Assembly: GCF_020531905.1 (NCBI RefSeq)
Contig: NZ_JAJAWG010000002.1
Coordinates: forward strand, 248,001 to 312,000
Direction of reading: 5' to 3'
Length of the DNA: 64,000 bases
DNA from: Deefgea salmonis
Lineage (GTDB): Bacteria > Pseudomonadota > Gammaproteobacteria > Burkholderiales > Chitinibacteraceae
Shown piece after piece: positions 2,366 to 19,688 of the stretch (position 1 is the stretch's first letter; every line of letters starts with the position of its first letter). Below the pieces are notes generated by a model. It was not told the origin of the DNA. It ran no database searches and saw nothing but the letters and a program-made list of their open reading frames with translations. The position numbers and the translations under genes are program-made.

Positions 2366-2908
2366 CCTGAATATTATTTTTCGATAAAGCGGTATGTTAG
2401 CCCGGTAATCTCCCCACTGATTTATTTGAGTATCGCCAAGATGTGTTGATTATTAGCTCGTTCTATCGTTATTTACGCCATTGTATTGCGTGCTGTAGCG
2501 ATCTTCATCGCACGTAAACGTTCTATCTCTCAGTTATTCCCCCGCCTTCCAATTTGTAGTTACCAAAACGGGTATAAGGCCCAGTCCCAAGTATTTTGCG
2601 GCTTCGGGCCTGATACCTCGTATCTTGCCTCTGGCCAAAAGCCGTACAAACCCAGTCGGAAAACAAACCTCAACAGACCCTAATGCAGTGCTACTAAATT
2701 TAGTGATTGATTCTTGAACAAAGTGGTTTAGTGGATTTAAAAACGCGCCGACCATGGTGTTAAATAGAAAATCAAGTAAATACTTTCTTCAGTATTTTTT
2801 TTTAATTAATTTTATCCGTTGAATTGTGACAATTCTCGCAATTTTAAAATTAAGCAACTAACCTGATTGTAGTCATATCGATGTAGGCTGAGTGCCAAGG
2901 GGTGAGCT
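2366..2908. other. Intergenic region with an inverted repeat, no convincing gene
   Basis: 543 bp between motD and the repeat-protein cluster. Two short overlapping frames exist but neither has a ribosome site or recognisable protein features. An imperfect 12-bp inverted repeat (2571-2582 and 2606-2617, GGTATAAGGCCC against GGGCCTGATACC) with one mismatch resembles dispersed-repeat debris. The last 150 bp become very A/T-rich (poly-T around 2790-2805) and probably hold the promoter of the cluster starting at 2909. Confidence 0.5.
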
Positions 2909-4399
2909 TTGCAGGATTTTTCATCGGCGAGTAATGATCAGCTGCCATTTTTTTTTCAGCAGCTTGAGGAGTTATTTTTATTCGATATTGAACAAGCTTA
3001 TGCGGCAAGTTGCGCCTTATTAGCACGCTGTAAGCAAATGGAACTATCGGCACTTCAGTTAACTAAAATGCAGCTACTTCACAGCAAAATGTTATGGGGC
3101 AAGGGGCAATATCATGCTGCTCTATATGCAATAACACAGATACTAAAAAAAATTCAGAATCATTCTTTATTTGAATTAAAAGCTGAAGCTTATTTATGGC
3201 GTGGGCAATGTAATCTTAATTTGAAGCGTCATGTTATTGCCGTGGAAGATTTTACTTATGCCGTAGAATTGGCATTAGAGTATTCTCAGATTAGTATTGC
3301 GATTGAGTCTTATGTGAATATTAGCCAGATTTATTATTTTGCAGAGCAATATGATGCTTCAAAAGAAATATTAATTATTGGGTATCGTTTAGCCGTTTTA
3401 CTAAATGATCACAAGCAAATTACCAAAAGTGGGATTTTTTTATCTAACTATCTAAATGAGTCAGGCGATCATGCCAGTGCACTTTATATTCTTAATCAAA
3501 TAGAATCTAGTGCTCTGCAATATGGCGATATGACATGGGTGGTTGAGGCTGGTGTTAATATTGCTTCTGCGTATGCCGGAATGAATGAAACTGAATTGGC
3601 TGAGGTTTATTTTGAATCCATGCTCGCCATTTCAAATTTTAATCATGCACTTTGGGCAAAATCATTAACATTGTTGAAATATGGTGAGTTTTTAATTTAT
3701 CAAAATCGATTTGAAGAAGCTATTGCTTGCTTAAAAATTGCAGTTGAAGGGATTAATCAATTTGATTATGGCAATGTAAGGCAGCAAAGTGCTAAATTGC
3801 TATTGAATGCATATAAGCACATTGGTGATTTTAAGTCTGCATTGTGTGAAATAAAAAAATATAAGCAATTTTCTGAATCATTATTAAATAATCATTTACT
3901 CCATGACTTAAAAGGAAGCGCATTAAATTTATCAAGACTAGATCGATCTAGAAAAAAAATAATTAAAACGAGGCAGAATTTTGAGCATATGCTGGATTTA
4001 ATTTCCCCTGGAGAATCTAGGGTTCGCTACCAGCAATTTAAATTGAAGTGTTTGAGCGCGACTTGCTCGATTGAAATAATTCATGTTCAGCTACTTGGCT
4101 TGTTATATGTTACAGGACTGTATTTACAGAAAATGAATGCCTTATTGCGTGAGTATTGCTTGGCTGAATCAACATGGACCAAATTACCTAATTTTTCCTA
4201 CTTAATTATTCCGGACCAAGCCTATGTAAATTCCGCGATGGCGTTGAGTCAGCTAGTAAAAATAATCGATGGTTTTCCATGGCGTTGGCATGGGTTAAAT
4301 CCGCCGGCAGTCAAAATTCAATTAATTCCGATTCAGTCCGCAATTGAATTGCTTTCACCTTTGGAAGAGGGAGGCCAAAAAATTGAATTACTTATTTAA
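2909..4399 (+). CDS. TPR-like helical-repeat protein, function unknown (copy 1)
   Basis: A 496-residue cytoplasmic protein with no signal peptide or membrane helix. Residues about 20-330 are TPR-like helix pairs such as AEAYLWRGQCNLNLKRHVIA and VNISQIYYFAEQYDASKE; the last 150 residues form a separate region I do not recognise. I place the start at TTG 2909 because AAGGGGTGAG lies 4-12 bases upstream; no in-frame ATG is better placed. It is a paralogue of the next gene (both carry KSGIFL and a GDMTW block), and the kinase two genes on has the same repeat type. A run of nine T (2948-2956) sits in codons 14-16. Codons are rich in TTA, ATT and AAT compared with the flanking genes. A protein-protein interaction or ligand-sensing partner of the kinase is inferred. 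Confidence 0.75.
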   Translation: MQDFSSASNDQLPFFFQQLEELFLFDIEQAYAASCALLARCKQMELSALQLTKMQLLHSKMLWGKGQYHAALYAITQILKKIQNHSLFELKAEAYLWRGQCNLNLKRHVIAVEDFTYAVELALEYSQISIAIESYVNISQIYYFAEQYDASKEILIIGYRLAVLLNDHKQITKSGIFLSNYLNESGDHASALYILNQIESSALQYGDMTWVVEAGVNIASAYAGMNETELAEVYFESMLAISNFNHALWAKSLTLLKYGEFLIYQNRFEEAIACLKIAVEGINQFDYGNVRQQSAKLLLNAYKHIGDFKSALCEIKKYKQFSESLLNNHLLHDLKGSALNLSRLDRSRKKIIKTRQNFEHMLDLISPGESRVRYQQFKLKCLSATCSIEIIHVQLLGLLYVTGLYLQKMNALLREYCLAESTWTKLPNFSYLIIPDQAYVNSAMALSQLVKIIDGFPWRWHGLNPPAVKIQLIPIQSAIELLSPLEEGGQKIELLI

Positions 4400-5747
4400 T
4401 GAAAAAAACAAATTAGCCTTTACTCAAACCATTGAATCTCAATTTTTTGACGTAGAGAAAGCATATTGGGATGCCGGATCGGATAGTCGTAATTTGTGTG
4501 TAGATTTGCTACAGCGCTGTAAGTATGAAGCACATCCTTGGCTGGGATATGCCTATGCACTCTATGGACGAATTTTATTGGCGTTTGATGAAAATATTAA
4601 AGCATTAACATGGCTACAAAAAGGATATAAGTCTGTTGAAAAAAATAAAGATATCGAGCACCTACCTTTCACCATGTTGTGGCTTGGGGTTGCGTTGGAG
4701 AGAAATAGTAAATACATATTGGCGATTGAGACTTGGGTTAAAACAATTGATTTGGCTTTGGAATTAACTCAATTAGAGTATGGTGTTGAGGCATATTTAA
4801 ATGCCTCAATGGTGTATTATCATTTAGGTCAATATGAAAACGCAGATATTTTAATGCGTAATGGATTGAAATTGGCAGAATCAATTCATAGTAATAAATT
4901 AATTGCTAAAAGTGGCATATTTTTGATGGAGGGTTTGTTACTATCGGAACGGTATGATGCCGCTTTGGCTTTACTGACTCGAATTGAACCCTATGCATTG
5001 GCCCATGGTGATATGACATGGCTGGTGCAAATTTGTAATGGTTATGCGATTTCATATTGGAAAAATGCTAACAATGAATTGGCTGTGTTTTACTATGAAG
5101 CTGCTTTGGCAATCGCCAAGCATTATAAAATGATGTGGGGTTATTGTATTACAGCTATTAACTATGGCGAAGGTTTGCAAGGCAATAATCAGCTGGGTGA
5201 TATTTTCCCTATTTTATTGAGTGCGAAAAAAATATTAAAAGATATTAATCATAATGATTTAGATGCTAGATTGAATTATTTACTTTATCAGGCGTACCGT
5301 GAATATGGTGATTATGCTGCAGCCTTAAGTGTATTACGCGCTTATGAGCGGCAAACCATTCGACATATTACGGATGAAATCGGTGAGAAAGGAGTTAGAT
5401 TAAATTTAAATCGCTTGGATAAGGCGCGTAGTTTATTGATTAGAACGCATATTAAATTTGAAAAACTAGCTGGCTGGGTTGTTCCTGGTGTTTCATTGCA
5501 ACATTTAAGACAGTTTCGTTTGCGATGTGAGTCCGCTGATTTTAGTGATCGAGTGATTGAACTTACATTTGATTTATTGATTGACTCGGTTATTGAACAG
5601 CGTATTTCGATATTACTTAATGATTATTGTGCTTTGAGTGATTTATGGGTCTTTGTACCACCATATCGTTATATTATCTATCCAAAAGAATCGAGTTTCA
5701 TTTTAATGGATTTTGCTCAGTCTTTGTCCTTTGTCCTTTGCCATTGA
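4383..5747 (+). CDS. TPR-like helical-repeat protein, frameshifted at its 3' end (copy 2)
   Basis: About 454 residues, paralogous to the preceding gene over nearly its whole length (shared KSGIFL, HGDMTW, LNLNRLDKA-like blocks). I prefer the TTG start at 4383, since AGAGGGAGG ends 8 bases before it; this overlaps the upstream gene by 17 bases. An ATG at 4344 is possible but lacks a ribosome site. The frame stops at 5747, but removing one unit of the TTTGTCC tandem repeat (5723-5736) restores a frame that continues for about 40 more residues. That tail includes ALPWERYGKDKIKVKF, aligning with FPWRWHGLNPPAVKIQL of copy 1. The restored stop (5869-5871) would overlap the kinase start. The gene is therefore either truncated, phase-variable, or affected by a sequence error. 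Confidence 0.72.
   Translation: MNYLFNEKNKLAFTQTIESQFFDVEKAYWDAGSDSRNLCVDLLQRCKYEAHPWLGYAYALYGRILLAFDENIKALTWLQKGYKSVEKNKDIEHLPFTMLWLGVALERNSKYILAIETWVKTIDLALELTQLEYGVEAYLNASMVYYHLGQYENADILMRNGLKLAESIHSNKLIAKSGIFLMEGLLLSERYDAALALLTRIEPYALAHGDMTWLVQICNGYAISYWKNANNELAVFYYEAALAIAKHYKMMWGYCITAINYGEGLQGNNQLGDIFPILLSAKKILKDINHNDLDARLNYLLYQAYREYGDYAAALSVLRAYERQTIRHITDEIGEKGVRLNLNRLDKARSLLIRTHIKFEKLAGWVVPGVSLQHLRQFRLRCESADFSDRVIELTFDLLIDSVIEQRISILLNDYCALSDLWVFVPPYRYIIYPKESSFILMDFAQSLSFVLCH
5723..5736 (+). repeat. 7-bp tandem duplication TTTGTCC x2 causing a frameshift
   Basis: TTTGTCC occurs twice head to tail (5723-5729, 5730-5736) and is followed by the near copy TTTGCC. Seven bases shift the frame by one. 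Deleting one unit joins SLSFAIEALPW in frame and gives an open frame to 5871, so the duplication is the simplest explanation for the early stop of the surrounding gene. Confidence 0.8.
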
Positions 5748-5863
5748 AGCATTACCATGGGAGCGATATGGAAAAGATAAAATAAAAGTTAAATTTAAAC
5801 TACAGCTTGCCAATGAGACCATGCTTAGACAGGTTGATGTTTTATTGAAAAAGGAGCTGGAGT

Positions 5864-8830
5864 ATGTCTGAGCAACTGGCCAATTTATTATTACAGCAAA
5901 AACAGTTTAGAAGGCATAATTTTCAGCAGGCATTGTTACTGTCAGCACAGTTGATCGAAAAAGCCGAAGAAGTCGATAATGAAACTATATTAGCTCAGGC
6001 GTTGTTTTTACGTGGCGAGGCATTTGAAAAAACAGGAAATTATATTTCCGCTCGGCAGACATTAGAGTCGGCATTAAAAATTACCGTGAAATTGAATTTA
6101 GATGCATTATTGTTAGATATTTATGAGTGCTTAGGTAAAGTTTATTATATTTTAGGTGATTTAAATACGGCATTAAGTACTTGGGGGCAGTGTCTTGAGT
6201 TAGCGCTTGATCAGCATTCTATTGTGCATTACATCAAAGCATATGTTGGTATTGGTGGTGTATATCTGTATTTTGATATGGCTGAAGAATCATTACGGCA
6301 TCATAAAATTGCTTATGATTATGTTCAAGAATTAAATGATGACCAATTACTAATGATGTTGCATTTATGGCTAGGGCATGATTATCAGCGATTAGCACAG
6401 CATGAATTAGCATTGCAGCATTTGGCATCTTGTCGTGCACTTTACTCGCAAACGAATGATGCCGCGATGATGAGTGAAGCGATTATGCATTCTGGTTTTT
6501 CGCAGCTGGGTTTGGGGCGATACAACGAAGCAAGACAGTGCTTTTTACAAACGATTACTTTGTCACAACGCCACCATTATGCATGGTCTACGGTAATGGG
6601 GCAGCTCGGGATTGCTGAGGTTGCCTTATTGCAAGGCGATATGCAGGTAGCTTTGGTTGAATCGCAACATGCACTTGATGCCGCCTATCAAGGCGGTTCA
6701 CAGCATCAAGAAATGAAAGCGAGTCGCATTCAGTCTGCAGTCTATGAGCATATGGGCCAGTTTGAATTGGCGCTCACTTTGTATGAGCGCCATACTGAAT
6801 TGGCGATTAAATTAGCTAAAGAGCGAACTTTTACCCAAATAGAAAGTAGCACGATGCGCAAGATCTCGCGCATGGAAATGCGATTGAAATTATTAAAATC
6901 AGAGCAGCAAAAACAAAATATTTTAAATGAAAGTATTCGACAACAAGCAGAGCACCTTGCTGAGAAAAACACATTAATTGCGATTAATCAGGCGAAAAGT
7001 GATTTCCTAGCATTAATTAGTCATGAGATTCGAACTCCGTTGTCGGGTGTCATTGGCATGCTACGCTTGGCGGGCGGGCAAAAAGAATTGCGACCAGCGA
7101 CGCGTACTCAAGTTCGAATGGGCTTAGAAAATGCAGAGTTATTATTGGAAATAATTAATGATATTCTGGATGCATCAAAGATTGAATCTGGCAAACTATC
7201 GATTGAATCTATTCCGTTTGATTTGATCAAATTATTACACCAAGTGGTCGATTTTTTTACTGCACGCGCAGAGGAAAAAGGCATCACATTTATATTAAAT
7301 ATTGCTCGATTTAGTCCTGCAGGTTGTTTGGGCGATCCAACTCGAATACGGCAGATATTATTTAATTTAATTGGTAATTCAATTAAATTTACCGAGCAAG
7401 GGTCAGTCACAATCACCGCTTATCGTGATCATGAGCAAGTTAAGATCTTGATTAGTGATACCGGTATTGGTATGGATGAAGTAACGATTGGTCGTTTATT
7501 TCAAAAATTTGAACAGGCGGATACTTCAACAACGCGTAAATATGGGGGTACTGGCTTAGGTTTGTCAATTTGTCGTGGCTTAATTGATTTAATGGATGGC
7601 TCTTTGGGAGTAACCAGTGCACCAAATGAAGGTAGTCATTTTAGAGTTGAAGTGCCATTGCCTATCGCAGACGTTCCTATTGAGCTATCAAAATATGAAT
7701 GCCCATTGCAGTCGTTAAATTATAAAATAAAAGTCTTATATGCCGAGGATGTTGAAACTAACCAATTGATTGTGCGTGCATTACTTGAAGAAATGAATCT
7801 TTCGTTGAGTGTCGTGGACAATGGTGAGGAAGCATTACGGGCTTTGTCTGAAATGAATTTTGATGTCGTTTTGATGGATTGGCGAATGCCAATTATGGAT
7901 GGTATGACGGCGACACGTTTGATTCGTGAGGGGGGTAATTTACAATATCGTATTAAAGATCCTGATGTTTATATTGTCGCTTTAACCGCTAATGCCACTG
8001 CCAAAGAGCAAAGTGAGGGTATGGCGATTGGTATGAATGATTATTTAACCAAGCCGGTTTCTTCTCGTGGTTTGCATCAAGCATTAAATCAAGCGATTCA
8101 TTATCAATTGCAGCGCGGTATTGTATTACCACTGATGAAAAAAACTGCTGATCAAGATATGACAAGTTTAAAAAAATCACTATCAGCGTCAGCTCTACAA
8201 TGGATAGATCAATTAACTGATTTAGGTGTTGCTGTTGATGAGGCATTAGATCGATTGAATGGTAATTTATCTCGTTATCAACGCTGGCTATTGCATTTTT
8301 TTACCGAAAATCAAGATTTTTTTACTGCCATTAATCAGCTTAAAGATATCGATCATTTGGATGATTATATTGAAAAAATTCATGCAATGCGTGGTGTGTC
8401 AGGGACATTAGGCTTGATGGATTTTTATCGAACAGCGAGTGAATTAGAGCATGCCTTATTTCAGCAGCAAAAGGAAACGATCAAAAATCTACCTGATTTT
8501 TATGAATTGGAACAAGCATGGTTGCGAGCGAAAAATAAAATACTGCCGTTAATTGAAATTGAATCGATGCCGAGTGCTTTGATTCAAGCTGATGGTATTT
8601 TGCCGATCAGTAGTTTAGCCACTGCTTTAGGGTTGCAAGCGGCCTTGAAAAATAATAGTTTACGCGCTAGAAAATTACTCGTCGCTTTGCAGAAAGAATT
8701 ACCAGAGTCTAAATTTAATTTGCTAGTCGACGTGACGGGTGCCTTAGAAAAATTGGACTATCCTGCTGCACTAGCCGCATTGAATCAACGAATCCCTATG
8801 GCAATGGAAGAGGTGATTATTAATGGATGA
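5864..8830 (+). CDS. Hybrid sensor histidine kinase: TPR-like sensor, HisKA, HATPase, REC, Hpt
   Basis: A 988-residue soluble kinase. Residues about 1-325 are TPR-like repeats of the same type as the two upstream proteins (for example the TWGQCLELAL...IKAYVGIGGVYLYF segment). A coiled coil at about 330-375 leads to the dimerisation domain with H387 in SHEIRTPLSG, the ATPase with N501/N505, DTGIG 532-536 and GGTGLGL 561-567, a receiver with D672 (acid pair E628/D629, K730), and an Hpt domain with H840 in IHAMRG. A full His-Asp-His relay is thus in one chain, with the final aspartate probably on the response regulator encoded next. Its ATG overlaps the restored frame of the upstream gene by 8 bases and its end overlaps the next gene by 8 bases. 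Confidence 0.93.
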   Translation: MSEQLANLLLQQKQFRRHNFQQALLLSAQLIEKAEEVDNETILAQALFLRGEAFEKTGNYISARQTLESALKITVKLNLDALLLDIYECLGKVYYILGDLNTALSTWGQCLELALDQHSIVHYIKAYVGIGGVYLYFDMAEESLRHHKIAYDYVQELNDDQLLMMLHLWLGHDYQRLAQHELALQHLASCRALYSQTNDAAMMSEAIMHSGFSQLGLGRYNEARQCFLQTITLSQRHHYAWSTVMGQLGIAEVALLQGDMQVALVESQHALDAAYQGGSQHQEMKASRIQSAVYEHMGQFELALTLYERHTELAIKLAKERTFTQIESSTMRKISRMEMRLKLLKSEQQKQNILNESIRQQAEHLAEKNTLIAINQAKSDFLALISHEIRTPLSGVIGMLRLAGGQKELRPATRTQVRMGLENAELLLEIINDILDASKIESGKLSIESIPFDLIKLLHQVVDFFTARAEEKGITFILNIARFSPAGCLGDPTRIRQILFNLIGNSIKFTEQGSVTITAYRDHEQVKILISDTGIGMDEVTIGRLFQKFEQADTSTTRKYGGTGLGLSICRGLIDLMDGSLGVTSAPNEGSHFRVEVPLPIADVPIELSKYECPLQSLNYKIKVLYAEDVETNQLIVRALLEEMNLSLSVVDNGEEALRALSEMNFDVVLMDWRMPIMDGMTATRLIREGGNLQYRIKDPDVYIVALTANATAKEQSEGMAIGMNDYLTKPVSSRGLHQALNQAIHYQLQRGIVLPLMKKTADQDMTSLKKSLSASALQWIDQLTDLGVAVDEALDRLNGNLSRYQRWLLHFFTENQDFFTAINQLKDIDHLDDYIEKIHAMRGVSGTLGLMDFYRTASELEHALFQQQKETIKNLPDFYELEQAWLRAKNKILPLIEIESMPSALIQADGILPISSLATALGLQAALKNNSLRARKLLVALQKELPESKFNLLVDVTGALEKLDYPAALAALNQRIPMAMEEVIING

Positions 8831-9728
8831 GGCTTTTATTTTGGTGGTTGATGACCAAATGAATACGATAGAAACATTGGGTGAAGTGCTGGGTGATGAG
8901 CTAGATGTGCATTTTGCTTTGAGTGCTGAGCAGGCATTAAGTCATATTGAGCGGCAATTACCTGAACTGATTTTGCTTGATATTATGATGCCAGAAATTG
9001 ATGGGTTTAAATTTTGTGAGATTCTAAAGTCTAAGTTAGAAACTAGGGATATTCCAATAATTTTTATTAGCTCTTTATCATCCCCTGAGCAAGAAACTCG
9101 GGGTTTAGAGGCGGGGGCTGTTGATTATATTATTAAGCCATTTAATGCCTCAATTGTTCGTGCTCGAGTGCACAATCATTTGGAATTAAAACGGACTAAA
9201 GATTTATTGCGGGTGTTATCGCAAACCGATGTATTAACCGGAATGGCCAATCGCCGGCGATTATTTGAATTACTTGATCAAGTACAAGATCGATCATTGC
9301 GGCTTGCTCAGCCTTTGTCGATTTTGTTAATTGATGTGGATTCGTTTAAACAATATAACGATTTATATGGCCATATTGCGGGCGATGTTTGCTTGCAGCG
9401 CGTGGCTGGGGTGATTCAATCTTCATTACGCTCAGTGACGGATGTGGCGGCGCGATATGGTGGAGAAGAGTTTTGTTGTGTGCTTGAAAACTCAGATCAG
9501 GAGTTGGCGCTACAAATTGCCGAGCGAATTCGTAGCAGTATTGAGGCTTTGCAAATTCCACATTTAAATAGTGCGGTGACCCGTTGCGTGACGGTGAGTA
9601 TTGGCGTGGCCACTTCAACGCCAAGCTGTCGCATTCAACATGCTCAATTATTGATGAATGCTGATAAAGCCTTATATGCGGCCAAAGATTTGGGCCGTAA
9701 TCAAGTTCGTCATTTCCATTGCTTGTAA
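8823..9728 (+). CDS. Response regulator with REC and GGDEF domains (diguanylate cyclase)
   Basis: A 301-residue protein. The receiver (1-120) has the acidic pair D10/D11, phosphoacceptor D53 in LLDIMMPEID and K105 in IIKPF. The GGDEF domain (about 130-300) has an intact active site GGEEF at 213-217, so it should make cyclic di-GMP from two GTP when phosphorylated. The usual inhibitory RxxD site five residues before GGEEF is not intact: the sequence reads RSVTD, with arginine one position too far away, so product inhibition may be weak. It is translationally coupled to the hybrid kinase (8-base overlap), whose Hpt domain is the obvious phosphodonor. Confidence 0.93.
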   Translation: MDEAFILVVDDQMNTIETLGEVLGDELDVHFALSAEQALSHIERQLPELILLDIMMPEIDGFKFCEILKSKLETRDIPIIFISSLSSPEQETRGLEAGAVDYIIKPFNASIVRARVHNHLELKRTKDLLRVLSQTDVLTGMANRRRLFELLDQVQDRSLRLAQPLSILLIDVDSFKQYNDLYGHIAGDVCLQRVAGVIQSSLRSVTDVAARYGGEEFCCVLENSDQELALQIAERIRSSIEALQIPHLNSAVTRCVTVSIGVATSTPSCRIQHAQLLMNADKALYAAKDLGRNQVRHFHCL

Positions 9729-9808: not shown

Positions 9809-9841
9809 ACTATAGGTGGCATGGGTATTGCCACCTATAGT
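9809..9841. terminator. Bidirectional terminator between convergent genes
   Basis: A perfect 13-bp stem, ACTATAGGTGGCA (9809-9821) and its complement (9829-9841), with a 7-base loop and T-rich sequence (CTATTTTATATT) after it. It sits between the diguanylate cyclase on the plus strand and the efflux pump gene on the minus strand. Confidence 0.8.
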
Positions 9842-9861: not shown

Positions 9862-12800
9862 CTATATACCCCGTGATTTGCCAATCTTTTCTAAGGTGAG
9901 ATATAAAACAGGGGTGATGTAGAGCGTGATCAATTGCGAGAAAATCAGTCCGCCGACAATACTCACCCCCAATGGTTGACGTAGTTCAGCGCCTGCGCCC
10001 AAACCCAGTGCCAGAGGCAATGCGCCCATTAGTGCCGCGAGGGTGGTCATCATAATCGGCCGAAAGCGTTTGGCGCTGGCCTCAGTAATGGCATCAATGG
10101 GGCGTAGCGCGTTTTTGCGCTGCGCTTCAAGCGCAAAGTCGATCATCATAATGGCGTTCTTTTTGACAATCCCGACCAACAGCAAAATCCCAATCATCGC
10201 AATAAAAGTCAGCTCTAGCCCAGTGATTTGCAGCGCGAGTAGCGCGCCAATGGCTGCCGATGGAATACCCGCCAAAATGGTAATCGGGTGAATCCAGCTT
10301 TCGTATAACACCCCCAGCACCACATAAATGACGGCAACGGCGATCAAAATCAGCCAGAGCTGGCTCGATTGCGTTTGTTGATACAGTGCGGCATCCCCAG
10401 CAAATGCGCCAAAGATCGAACCGGGCAGGCCGATTTGGCTTTCGCTGGCTTTAATTTCGCGTGCAGCATCCGACAGCGACGCACCTTCGGCTAAGTTAAA
10501 TGAGATCGTAATCGCCGGTAGCTGGCCTTGGTGATTGATTGCCGTGGTAACGGCGGTTCTTTCGATGGTAGCAAAGCTACTTAAAGGCACTAAGGCCCCC
10601 GACTTGCTACGCACTTTAAGTAAATTAAGTGCGTTTTCATCTTGGCGTGCGCTGTCTTTTAGTTGCATCAGCACTGAGTAGCTGTCTTGCGGCGCATAAA
10701 TGGTTGCTACTTCGCGCTCGCCATACGCGCCATACAGTGTGTCGCGTAAGCTTTGCATATCAATGCCTAATTCGCTGGCGCGATCACGATTGATATTGAT
10801 TTTGGCTTGCAGCGTTTTTTGTTCCGAATCAGAGGTCACGTCGCGGAATGTCGGGTTGGCGGCCAGCGTGTTTTTAAGCCGATCGGTCCATGATTCCAGC
10901 TGATCAGAACTCACGGCTTGCAAAGTATATTGATAGCTACTTTTGCCGCTACGCCCACCAATCTGCAAATTTTGGGTCGGGCGATAAAACATACTAATGC
11001 CGGCAATTTTACCCGTTGATTTGCGTAAGCTATCGAGCGTTTTCGCCATGTTTTGACGATCTTGGCGCGGTTTGAGCGTGATAAAGAAACGCCCACCGCT
11101 GCCGCTGCTGCCTAGGCTCGAGGCGACGGTGGCGACATTGGGATTGTCGAGTAAAGCTTGTGCTGCTTTTTGCTGTAATACCAACAGCGCTGGATAGCTG
11201 ATATCCGGCGACGCATCCATGCTTGCTTGCACTTGGCCGATGTCTTCTTGTGGGAAAAAGCCTTTTGGCGCTTGGATGTATAGCGCGGCGGTGGCGGCAA
11301 AAGTGGCAAAGGTGAGTAACAGCATCCAACGTTGATGGCGTAAAGCGACGGCTAAACTGCGCTGATACGCGGCCAGTAAGCGATTAAAACCGGCTTCAAA
11401 ATAGCGACTCCACGCCGGCTCGATTTTTTCTTCGTCGTGCGATTTTAAAAAGCGCGCGGCAAACAGTGGAATTAAGGTGAGCGACACCGCCATTGAAACC
11501 AATACAGCTAAAGACACGACGACGGCAAATTCGTGAAATAACAGGCCGATGGTGCCGGGCATAAAAAAGATCGGAATAAACACTGCAATCAGCGAAATCG
11601 AAATCGAGACCACGGTAAAGCCGACTTCTCCTGCGCCGGTGATAGCGGCTTCCAATGGCGCCATGCCTTCTTCGATATGGCGAACGATGTTTTCCAGTAC
11701 CACAATCGCATCGTCGACCACCAAGCCCAGCGCCACGGTTAGGCCCATTAATGAAATATTATCTAGGCTATACCCCAGCCAGTACATCAACGCAAACGTT
11801 GCCAGCATTGAGATCGGGAGCGATACCGATGGAATTAACGTGGCGGCGGCGCGGCGTAAAAACAGCAATACCGACAACACCACCAAGCCCATGGTGAGTA
11901 GCAAGGTCAAACTCACGTCATGAATCGATTCACGGATCGAGGTTGAACGGTCATTGAGTTTTTTAACTTCAACTGAGGCGGGCATTTGCGACGTCAGTCG
12001 CGGCAACATGGCGTTAATGGCATCTACAGTGGCGACGGTATTGGCGCCGGGCTGGCGCAAAATAGCCAGAATAATCGAGCGCTGACCGTCAATCCAGCTA
12101 CCTGATTTGATGTTTTCAACGCTGTCTTCCACCGTTGCTACATCCGAGAGTCGAATCGGTAAACCATTTTTGGTGGCGATAACGAGTCGGCTAAATTCAG
12201 CGGCATTTTTGAGCTGGGCATTGGCTTCGAGCATTAAGGTTTGGCGCTCGCCCTCAAGCTGGCCGACGGGTGAGTTGGCATTGGCTGTTTTGAGCGCGCT
12301 GGCTAATTCAGGCAAAGATAAATCGCGCGCAGCCAATAAATCCGGATCGACCGCTACGCGCACCGCAAAGCGTTTTTGCCCGTAAATGGTCACTTGAGCC
12401 ACGCCATCAATGGTGGATAAAGCCGGGCCAATCAGGTTGTCTGAGTAATCATTCAGTTGCGCCAGCGATAGCGAAGGCGAGTTAATACTTAGCATCAAAA
12501 TCGGCGCATCCGATGGATTGACTTTGCGATAGCTGGGCGGGCTTTTCATATCGCTCGGCAAGCTGCGATTGGCGCGGTACAGCGCGGCTTGTACGTCGAC
12601 CGCGGCTGATTCAATGTCCCGCGAGGGGGCAAATTCCAAGGTGATATTGGTGCTGCCCAGCTTGCTGGTCGATGTCATCGTCGCCAAGCCCGGGATGGTT
12701 GAAAATTGCTTTTCGAGCGGCGTTGCCACCGCATTGGCCATGGTTTCGGGTGAGGCGCCGGTTAAGCTGGCCGATACGCTAATTGTTGGCGTATCGTAAG

Positions 12801-12921
12801 TCGGCAGTGCGGCAATCGGTAAATGAAACCAAGCAATCGTGCCGGCGACCATCACGGCAATCCACAGCAACAGCGTGGCCACTGGGCGATGAATCGCCCA
12901 CCAAGAAATTCCGTGACTCAT
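9862..12921 (-). CDS. RND efflux pump inner-membrane transporter (HAE1 family)
   Basis: A 1019-residue AcrB/MdtB/MuxB-type drug-proton antiporter. The N-terminal helix (about 11-30) precedes a large periplasmic porter region, then a helix block with the family motif GLVVDDAIVVLEN, whose aspartates carry protons in transmembrane helix 4; the same arrangement repeats in the second half. Length is normal. It begins by the 1-base TAATG overlap with the adaptor gene, so the two are one operon. No outer-membrane TolC-type gene follows, so the pump must use a channel encoded elsewhere. Substrates cannot be told; among relatives it seems nearer to MdtB/MdtC-type than to AcrB, which is only an impression from the N-terminal sequence. 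Confidence 0.93.
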   Translation of the reverse strand: MSHGISWWAIHRPVATLLLWIAVMVAGTIAWFHLPIAALPTYDTPTISVSASLTGASPETMANAVATPLEKQFSTIPGLATMTSTSKLGSTNITLEFAPSRDIESAAVDVQAALYRANRSLPSDMKSPPSYRKVNPSDAPILMLSINSPSLSLAQLNDYSDNLIGPALSTIDGVAQVTIYGQKRFAVRVAVDPDLLAARDLSLPELASALKTANANSPVGQLEGERQTLMLEANAQLKNAAEFSRLVIATKNGLPIRLSDVATVEDSVENIKSGSWIDGQRSIILAILRQPGANTVATVDAINAMLPRLTSQMPASVEVKKLNDRSTSIRESIHDVSLTLLLTMGLVVLSVLLFLRRAAATLIPSVSLPISMLATFALMYWLGYSLDNISLMGLTVALGLVVDDAIVVLENIVRHIEEGMAPLEAAITGAGEVGFTVVSISISLIAVFIPIFFMPGTIGLLFHEFAVVVSLAVLVSMAVSLTLIPLFAARFLKSHDEEKIEPAWSRYFEAGFNRLLAAYQRSLAVALRHQRWMLLLTFATFAATAALYIQAPKGFFPQEDIGQVQASMDASPDISYPALLVLQQKAAQALLDNPNVATVASSLGSSGSGGRFFITLKPRQDRQNMAKTLDSLRKSTGKIAGISMFYRPTQNLQIGGRSGKSSYQYTLQAVSSDQLESWTDRLKNTLAANPTFRDVTSDSEQKTLQAKININRDRASELGIDMQSLRDTLYGAYGEREVATIYAPQDSYSVLMQLKDSARQDENALNLLKVRSKSGALVPLSSFATIERTAVTTAINHQGQLPAITISFNLAEGASLSDAAREIKASESQIGLPGSIFGAFAGDAALYQQTQSSQLWLILIAVAVIYVVLGVLYESWIHPITILAGIPSAAIGALLALQITGLELTFIAMIGILLLVGIVKKNAIMMIDFALEAQRKNALRPIDAITEASAKRFRPIMMTTLAALMGALPLALGLGAGAELRQPLGVSIVGGLIFSQLITLYITPVLYLTLEKIGKSRGI

Positions 12922-14054
12922 TATTTTGACCCTTGCACAGAGGCGGTGTTGCTCGCGGCCACGGACGGACGACTCGCTTCAATCACTTGAGCGCCAGGGC
13001 GCACATTTTGGCCGCCTTCTTTGATGATTTTGGTTTCGGCGGCAATGCCTTCAATCAGCGCTTGATTACCAACATTACGAATGACTTGAATCGGCTTGAC
13101 CTGCGCTTGTTTGTTTTGGTCGATGACATACACAAAGCGCTGCTCAGGGCCGGTTTGAATCGCTTGAATCGGCACAACTAAACCTTTTTGTTCGGCCAAT
13201 TCGATCGTGACGGTGCTGCTGAGTCCTGGCCACAATTGTAAATCGGCGTTGGCAAATTGCGCTTTGGCCAATAAGGTGCCGCTGGCTTTATCGACGGTAT
13301 TATCTAGAAACACCAATTCGCCAAGGCGAGTTTGGCCGTTCGGTAATTGTGTTTGCACCGGAACTTTGCCTTGGCTTTGCGCCGCAAGTAGGGCCGGTAA
13401 GTCGCTTTGATTGATATTAAAGCTGATTTGAATCGGGTCAGTTTGTGAGATCGTCACCAAGGCTTGGGTGGCGTTCGATTGCGCTAAGCTGCCTTGTTTT
13501 AAAGCTATTGCGCCAGTTCGGCCGGTGATTGGCGCATGAATTTGGGTGTAGGACAAATCCACGGCATTGGCGCGCTCATCAGCTTGGGCTGCTGCCACTT
13601 GGGCTTGTAAACTGCCCATTTTAGCGCGTGCGGTATCGACTGCCGATGGTGATAAAAATCCAGCTTGAGCGAGTTCTTCTGTACGTTTTAAATTACGTTC
13701 AGCCTCGGCAAACTCGGCTTTGCTTTTTTCGGTGAGGGCTTTGCTGCGGCCCACTTGGCTTTGCACGCCGCGTGAATCGAGCGTAAACAGCAATTGCCCG
13801 GCTTTGACGATGTCGCCTTCTTTAAAATGAATTTGCGCAATTTGTGCATTCACTTGCGGGCGCACTTCAACCGTTTGTACCGCTTCGGCGTGGCCAACGG
13901 CGCTAATGTGATGCGGCAAGGTGCCGTGCTTGACTTGCGTGCTCACCACCACCACTGGACGCTTGGTATTATTTTTGGTTTCCGGCGCTTTCCCGCAGGC
14001 ACTTAATCCTAAAACACAACAGCAACTGAGTACTGCGAGGCTGAATCTATTCAT
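12921..14054 (-). CDS. RND efflux periplasmic adaptor, lipoprotein
   Basis: A 377-residue HlyD/AcrA-type membrane fusion protein that joins the inner-membrane pump to the outer-membrane channel. The N-terminus ends in a lipobox LSAC with C20 as lipidation site. The barrel-sandwich half-motifs (about 60-95 and 165-205) flank an alpha-helical hairpin at about 95-165, and a beta-barrel region follows. It is the first gene of the operon and its stop overlaps the start of the RND gene by one base. No regulator is encoded beside it; the next upstream gene, lplT, is on the same strand but more than 1.0 kb away in coding terms and separated by a hairpin. Confidence 0.92.
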   Translation of the reverse strand: MNRFSLAVLSCCCVLGLSACGKAPETKNNTKRPVVVVSTQVKHGTLPHHISAVGHAEAVQTVEVRPQVNAQIAQIHFKEGDIVKAGQLLFTLDSRGVQSQVGRSKALTEKSKAEFAEAERNLKRTEELAQAGFLSPSAVDTARAKMGSLQAQVAAAQADERANAVDLSYTQIHAPITGRTGAIALKQGSLAQSNATQALVTISQTDPIQISFNINQSDLPALLAAQSQGKVPVQTQLPNGQTRLGELVFLDNTVDKASGTLLAKAQFANADLQLWPGLSSTVTIELAEQKGLVVPIQAIQTGPEQRFVYVIDQNKQAQVKPIQVIRNVGNQALIEGIAAETKIIKEGGQNVRPGAQVIEASRPSVAASNTASVQGSK

Positions 14055-19185: not shown

Positions 19186-19277
19186 GGAGATGTGGATGAG
19201 TGGCTGAAATCACCGCCCTGCTAAGGCGACATACGGGGTAACCTGTATCGAGGGTTCGAATCCCTCCGTCTCCGCCA
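19186..19277 (+). tRNA. tRNA-Ser (GCT)
   Basis: A 92-nt class II tRNA with a 7-bp acceptor stem GGAGATG/CGTCTCC (one T-G pair), long variable arm, GGTTCGAATCC T-arm and encoded CCA. The anticodon loop CTGCTAA gives anticodon GCT, reading AGC and AGT. Confidence 0.95.
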
Positions 19278-19297
19278 GGATCTTTAAGTTGTACAGT

Positions 19298-19374
19298 GCG
19301 CCCGTAGCTCAGTTGGATAGAGTATCTGGCTACGAACCAGAGGGTCGGGCGTTCGAATCGCTCCGGGCGCACCA
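19298..19374 (+). tRNA. tRNA-Arg (ACG), copy 1
   Basis: A 77-nt tRNA with acceptor stem GCGCCCG/CGGGCGC, anticodon stem TCTGG/CCAGA and loop CTACGAA, giving anticodon ACG (read as ICG after deamination). CCA is encoded. It is identical to the copy at 19511. Confidence 0.95.
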
Positions 19375-19395
19375 ACACTTAAAGCGTTTTACAAA

Positions 19396-19471
19396 GTCTC
19401 CATCGTCTAGAGGCCTAGGACACTGCCCTTTCACGGCGGCGACCGGGGTTCGAATCCCCGTGGAGACGCCA
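19396..19471 (+). tRNA. tRNA-Glu (TTC), copy 1
   Basis: A 76-nt tRNA with acceptor GTCTCCA/TGGAGAC, anticodon loop CTTTCAC giving TTC, and encoded CCA. It differs from the second tRNA-Glu at 19614 in the acceptor stem and D-arm. Confidence 0.94.
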
Positions 19472-19510
19472 ACTGTCGAGTTGGTGAGTTTTAAAAGTTT
19501 GAAATACAGT

Positions 19511-19587
19511 GCGCCCGTAGCTCAGTTGGATAGAGTATCTGGCTACGAACCAGAGGGTCGGGCGTTCGAATCGCTCCGGGCGCACCA
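19511..19587 (+). tRNA. tRNA-Arg (ACG), copy 2
   Basis: Identical over all 77 nt to the tRNA-Arg at 19298, including encoded CCA. The six bases before each copy (TACAGT) are also the same, which points to local duplication of an Arg-Glu pair. Confidence 0.95.
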
Positions 19588-19613
19588 ATTTCTTACTGCA
19601 TTAGATCTACAGA

Positions 19614-19688
19614 GTTCCCATAGTTTAGCGGTTAGAACACTGCCCTTTCACGGCGGCGGCCGGGGTTCGATTCCCCGTGGGAACGCCA
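19614..19688 (+). tRNA. tRNA-Glu (TTC), copy 2
   Basis: A 75-nt tRNA with acceptor GTTCCCA/TGGGAAC, loop CTTTCAC (anticodon TTC) and encoded CCA. It is a different isodecoder from the Glu gene at 19396. Confidence 0.94.

Follow-up and report, generated by a model that had tools for sequence, protein, structure and literature searches.

The cluster described here lies in a 64,000-nucleotide stretch of Deefgea salmonis DNA (RefSeq assembly GCF_020531905.1, contig NZ_JAJAWG010000002.1, positions 248,001 to 312,000; “the window” below means this whole stretch) and consists of four genes, all on the forward strand, encoding two tetratricopeptide repeat (TPR) proteins that we call A and B, a hybrid histidine kinase whose N-terminus also carries TPR repeats, and a separate cyclase with a receiver (REC) and a GGDEF domain (Table 1). 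Comparison with related proteins supports the view that A and B are RcbA-like and that the kinase carries a TPR domain of the RcbB type. RcbA and RcbB are a recently described pair of Vibrio vulnificus that controls biofilm formation; according to the original description (PMC12282931), RcbA consists of TPR repeats followed by a C-terminus without identifiable domains, and RcbB has the architecture TPR-GGDEF.

The open reading frames and Pfam matches bear out the preliminary description of the locus as four overlapping genes, of which the first three encode repeats, the third a kinase with its own REC and Hpt, and the fourth a REC-GGDEF protein. Pfam places TPR repeats in both A and B and at the N-terminus of the kinase, where HisKA, HATPase_c, REC and Hpt domains follow, and assigns REC plus GGDEF to the last protein. 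Genes A and B overlap by 17 bases, and the kinase and cyclase genes by 8 bases. An 8-base overlap between B and the kinase, which had been proposed for a restored reading frame of B, is indeed found where B is intact, with B ending at 12956 and the kinase starting at 12949 in the sister locus L006, and an overlap of 8 in L007 as well. The suggestion that the three proteins share the same type of repeat also holds, their repeats being related beyond chance (protein A of genome G001 against B of the window, 30% and 191 bits; against the kinase TPR domain, 21% and 53.5 bits). In a structure model of A, the TPR part has eight helix pairs, with the superhelix covering approximately residues 9-334 and the putative degenerate GGDEF domain approximately residues 364-483. 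Protein A is 95% identical to its relative in an uncultured Deefgea and 66% identical to that in Deefgea rivuli.

The B frame of the window is shifted by a 7-bp tandem duplication, at the cost of about the last 39 residues of the protein. Neither L006 nor L032, the close relatives with DNA compared, has the duplication, and the B frame is open in the 14 other genomes that carry the cluster (in two of these as part of a fusion). The break may be a genuine mutation or an error of sequencing.

Table 1. Genes and other features of the cluster and its immediate flanks (window coordinates)
Feature	Position	Strand	Description
Conserved element upstream of A	2833..2864	+	TTCTCGCAnTTT then AGCAnCTAnnCT; invariant columns in the upstream DNA of 7/7 Deefgea
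Gene A	2909..4399	+	496 aa, TTG start; RcbA-like, TPR and (most likely) degenerate GGDEF
Gene B	4383..5747	+	TTG start at 4383, in-frame to stop, 454 aa; second RcbA-like protein, TPR and (most likely) degenerate GGDEF
Tandem duplication (7 bp) shifting the B frame	5722..5740	+	Sequence comparison with relatives
Hybrid kinase gene	5864..8830	+	988 aa; RcbB-type TPR (by comparison), HisKA, HATPase_c, REC, Hpt, tail of ~110 residues
REC-GGDEF response-regulator cyclase gene	8823..9728	+	301 aa; motif GGEEF
Terminator-like stem 3' of the cyclase gene	9809..9841	+	13 pairs; 6 such sites in the region vs. 5.8 in shuffles

Conservation of the cluster

We searched 43 Chitinibacteraceae genomes, representing 11 genera, with a family profile, and obtained matches, mostly to other TPR proteins, in 33 of them. 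The tandem of A and B is present in 15 of the 43 genomes, namely in all seven Deefgea, all six members of genus g6 and both members of genus g11. The kinase adjoins A and B in every one of these 15 carriers, so that in these genomes the repeat proteins are not found apart from the kinase, a possibility that had been raised against the cluster being a unit; the cyclase is also adjacent in 14 of the 15. The two members of g11 have A and B fused in a single open frame (965 and 966 residues) that retains both C-terminal regions. The kinase frame of genome G036 ends early, at 605 residues (L039:9909-11726), and a contig end falls between its kinase and its cyclase, the latter being located at the start of its own contig (L092:1-906).

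The residues needed for signal transfer are kept throughout. The H-box His, the N-box Asn, the REC Asp and the Hpt His are present in 14/14 kinase rows aligned (the 15th carrier, G036, was left out due to its interrupted frame), and the REC Asp and GGEEF motif in 14/14 cyclase rows; the cyclase also has R and D at the place of the I-site, spaced RxxxD. No membrane segment is predicted in the kinase. The tail that follows its Hpt domain (window 8489-8827, residues ~876-988) has no Pfam match. Judging from co-inheritance and the kept phosphorelay and cyclase residues, the unit should lead to cyclic dimeric guanosine monophosphate (c-di-GMP). The complete path to c-di-GMP that was proposed earlier is upheld to this extent, i.e., as one co-inherited unit with kept residues, while the action of A and B on the kinase is a part that we infer.

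A fifth gene, encoding a membrane hybrid kinase (HKx) with five hydrophobic segments and without a Pfam match to Hpt, precedes A in 9 of the 15 carriers (e.g., L007:8083-9819). It does not neighbour A in the other six, which are the window, G001, G002, G005 and the g11 pair. The window and its three closest relatives share the absence of HKx in front of A. In the interval from motD to A (window 2366-2908), tblastn gave no convincing HKx remnant.

Searches across the class returned only the window's own genome among 369, whether the query was the A1 profile (threshold 1e-15) or RcbA (threshold 1e-8); up to four candidates were scored per genome and the presence of Vibrio among the 369 is uncertain, so these counts do not bound the spread of the family.

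The C-terminal domains of A and B

The C-terminal regions of A and B gave nothing above the Pfam cut-off, and hmmscan against Pfam and NCBIfam gave nothing near the cut-off for these regions or for the C-terminus of RcbA. Weak matches of the A and B regions to Sec20 (E 0.084) and RbfA (E 0.024) were set aside as chance. The C-terminus of A, modelled by AlphaFold2 with four relatives, has strands and helices in what we take to be the order of a GGDEF domain, and its best match among solved chains has a Z score of 9.6 with a root-mean-square deviation of 3.2 over 116 residues. Among the 50 matches listed (Z 8.1 to 9.6), 49 are GGDEF-domain chains, by title or by name, and one is PelD.

Profile comparisons point the same way. 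A profile of the C-termini of A and B plus two RcbA rows matched GGDEF at 91.8% in hhalign; homology to REC, kinase or Hpt domains was rejected at <0.5% each, and reversed controls also stayed at <0.5%. The C-terminal profile of A and B matched that of RcbA at 94.5% (E 7.7e-8), and the RcbA C-terminus matched GGDEF at 96.3% with 10 Chitinibacteraceae rows and at 14% with three Vibrio rows alone. Searched against the PDB, the RcbA profile (the 10 Chitinibacteraceae plus three Vibrio rows) gave 19 matches with a best E of 2.5e-6, of which 18 are GGDEF proteins and one is not; two SadC chains scored <1e-4 and the other 17 matches 0.009 to 1. It is important to note that this profile was made up of RcbA rows only, without A, B or the TPR protein of locus L100, whose recognisable GGDEF half could drive such matches. 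The latter protein (L100:3779-5326), encoded beside an RcbB-like gene, still scores as GGDEF (Pfam E 1.6e-11) and its sequence lacks the motif; going by this sequence, it is a half-way form with a half-degenerate GGDEF domain.

Even in relaxed form, a GG[DE]EF-like motif was found in none of the 35 A, B and RcbA rows (33 distinct proteins). The ratios of nonsynonymous to synonymous substitution rates (dN/dS) of the C-terminal domain are 0.044 and 0.052 for A and 0.078 for B, all from nearer pairs, and 0.178 for RcbA, with the caveat that one A pair has a dS of 1.6 and that wider pairs are saturated at silent sites. By these values the domain is under purifying selection and does not have the look of a decaying remnant. 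On the structure and profile matches, a degenerate GGDEF domain is the most likely identity of the C-terminus in both A and B, and the same identity is probable for the RcbA-type C-terminus. The earlier concern that these regions might match a known family with another role is borne out in part: they match the GGDEF fold, in degenerate form, but a GGDEF domain fits a role in c-di-GMP signalling.

Relationship to RcbAB

We built a tree of 61 TPR domains, without B of the window, the A and B parts of the fused proteins, and A and B of genome G428. The kinase TPR domain grouped with that of RcbB (support 100/99) and A grouped with B (100/100); the grouping of kinase and RcbB persisted (99) when A, B and four long rows were dropped from the tree. 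Protein A also matched three records of a plasmid collection, all of them Vibrio RcbA genes (best E 3e-4), over A residues 118-488; in phage records RcbA was not found with one query. RcbA is present in 7/7 Deefgea, and a canonical rcbAB is located on another contig of the same genome as the window (L051, contig C21). PMC12282931 lists Deefgea among the genera with rcbAB homologues.

The statement in the preliminary description that no such system was known is partly wrong, as it overlooked RcbAB (PMC12282931), where RcbA is related to A and B, and the RcbB TPR groups with that of the kinase. Its principal reading, in which TPR partners belong to a path dedicated to c-di-GMP, is upheld, with RcbAB as the precedent. 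Three points appear to be new: the kinase-wired variant of RcbAB, the constancy with which three genera conserve it, and the degenerate GGDEF domain that the RcbA-type C-terminus probably is. Our literature searches turned up neither the variant nor this identity, and the authors of PMC12282931 may have counted the present locus among their Deefgea entries.

Surroundings of the cluster

The element upstream of A is retained in 7/7 Deefgea though the preceding gene differs, and is perhaps a promoter or a regulator site; a promoter scan of the region gave matches at chance level. At the gathering threshold, Rfam returned five tRNAs and nothing else. A run of tRNA genes (Ser-Arg-Glu-Arg-Glu) lies at window 19186-19688; in it Arg(acg) and Glu(ttc) each occur twice.

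The genome has a further, rcbBA-like pair on a third contig (L050, contig C25), preceded by genes that we presume to be components of a phosphotransferase system. Further, positions 5600-9400 of L051 (C21) are 99% identical to genome G002, compared to 93% for window 9862-14054, a contrast to be expected if the species have recently exchanged DNA or if the assembly is mixed.

Proposed mechanism and alternatives

Based on the above, we favor a model in which the cluster and the RcbAB c-di-GMP switch are paralogues, the cluster being the kinase-wired form. For the mechanism as a whole we judge the case to be evenly balanced between this model and everything else, and we are more certain of the homology part alone. 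For RcbAB, PMC12282931 describes the TPR domain of RcbB as a repressor of RcbB activity, RcbA as relieving the repression with both its TPR domain and its C-terminus, the binding of the two as TPR to TPR, and the self-interaction of RcbA as independent of its TPR. By analogy, the TPR domain of the kinase would hold the kinase core in check, and A and B would bind it through their own TPRs and alter kinase output; TPR-TPR binding and relief of repression are both taken from RcbAB. A and B would probably pair through their dead GGDEF domains, as suggested by the self-interaction of RcbA outside the TPR together with the A-B fusion, and the A:B dimer would then span the kinase dimer; it may also touch the GGDEF domain of the separate cyclase, keeping the latter near the kinase. 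Phosphate would travel from the His to the Asp and the Hpt His of the kinase and on to the Asp of the REC-GGDEF protein, upon which c-di-GMP would be made, and HKx, where present, could feed the same Hpt.

A more specific arrangement, which we regard as unlikely in its entirety, is a pseudo-cyclase clamp: the dead GGDEF domains would join A to B, each kinase protomer would be gripped by one TPR arm, and the pseudo-GGDEF pair would dock on the cyclase GGDEF, such that the scaffold gates the kinase and also hands phosphate to the cognate cyclase. If true, RcbAB would be the one-enzyme version of a more general design, with TPR-pseudoGGDEF proteins selecting the output module that a TPR receives.

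Several observations weigh against the favored model. The AlphaFold2 model of the A C-terminus is of moderate confidence (predicted local distance difference test, pLDDT, 71.9), the aligner warns that best Z scores of 7-8 are common for models without a clear match, and Foldseek gave only weak matches for this region (best E 0.01). Separate profiles reach GGDEF weakly (10.9% and 47.8% for A, 31.9% and 2.7% for B, against two GGDEF sets), and an hmmsearch of the PDB with a C-terminal profile of A and B only returned no GGDEF chain, with a single unrelated match (E 0.83). Both TPR trees carried long-branch warnings, and A, B, RcbA and the L100 protein grouped at 57/57, with a p value of 0.308 in the approximately unbiased test (p-AU) for A, B and RcbA alone, i.e., a grouping that is neither shown nor rejected on the TPRs. 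Genome G025 (L038) has the fused A-B and the kinase and no cyclase gene in the ~6 kb downstream examined. Finally, the broken B frame of the window implies that B may be dispensable in this genome.

Alternatively, A and B might be negative regulators, acting either as decoys that occupy a shared partner or the TPR of the kinase, or as Rap-like REC binders that drain phosphate, in which case c-di-GMP would fall. Rap proteins act on phosphorelays, the model of A matches Rap proteins at Foldseek E values of 3.3e-6 to 3.6e-5 (RapH in complex with Spo0F is one of them), and the idea of competition put forward in the preliminary description is of this type. However, the match appears to be one of general TPR resemblance, since LGN chains rank higher than Rap, and RcbA, the nearest studied relative, raises output according to PMC12282931; overall, we find negative regulation rather unlikely.

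Less probable still is a plain phosphorelay in which A and B serve as anchors, polar or flagellar, positioning the kinase and the cyclase without gating their activity. In Vibrio, RcbA is described as anchoring its partner RcbB to the flagellar pole (PMC12282931), and motD is listed upstream of the cluster in 11 of the 15 carriers, but neither g11 genome has motD next to the cluster; it is also not listed at L041 and L042, possibly masked there by a frame on the opposite strand. The idea that A and B are receptors, with the degenerate GGDEF binding c-di-GMP or GTP and the TPR relaying its level to the kinase as feedback, invokes the known role of degenerate GGDEF domains as effectors in general (PMC12282931) but sits poorly with the missing motif in all 35 rows, and is similarly improbable.

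Under the favored, kinase-wired model, the TPR pairing seen in RcbAB could also be plugged into a phosphorelay, which would represent a natural domain swap in the rewiring of second-messenger signalling. Further, if the RcbA C-terminus is a worn-out GGDEF domain, this would provide a direct reason for the self-assembly of RcbA and for its effect on RcbB.

Comparison with known systems

The kinase has the same HisKA-HATPase-REC-Hpt order and residues as the unorthodox hybrid kinases of the BarA, ArcB and TorS type, but differs in its TPR input domain and in lacking any predicted membrane segment, and scores below the curated cut-offs (345 of 676.5 for TorS, 339 of 890 for BarA). With the FimS TPR kinase family (NF053520) it has in common a TPR region followed by a kinase; however, scores against this family are 13.7 (A), 31.8 (B) and 111.4 bits (kinase) for a cut-off of 600 bits, and the profile match stops at the end of the kinase domain, without REC-Hpt. 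The cyclase shares with REC-GGDEF cyclases such as PleD, WspR and DgcR the REC with its Asp and the GGEEF motif, but does not reach the PleD and DgcR cut-offs and has RxxxD at the I-site instead of the RxxD of PleD.

The closest known system is RcbAB, with which the cluster has in common adjacent TPR proteins, an RcbA-like partner with the same C-terminal domain, an RcbB-type TPR on the partnered protein and an output in c-di-GMP (predicted here); the genes of the Vibrio pair at L104 overlap, as they do in the cluster. In contrast to RcbAB, the RcbB-type TPR is not part of a TPR-GGDEF protein here but of a His-Asp-His kinase (TPR-HisKA-HATPase-REC-Hpt), the cyclase is a separate REC-GGDEF protein, and there are two RcbA-like proteins instead of one, fused in one genus.

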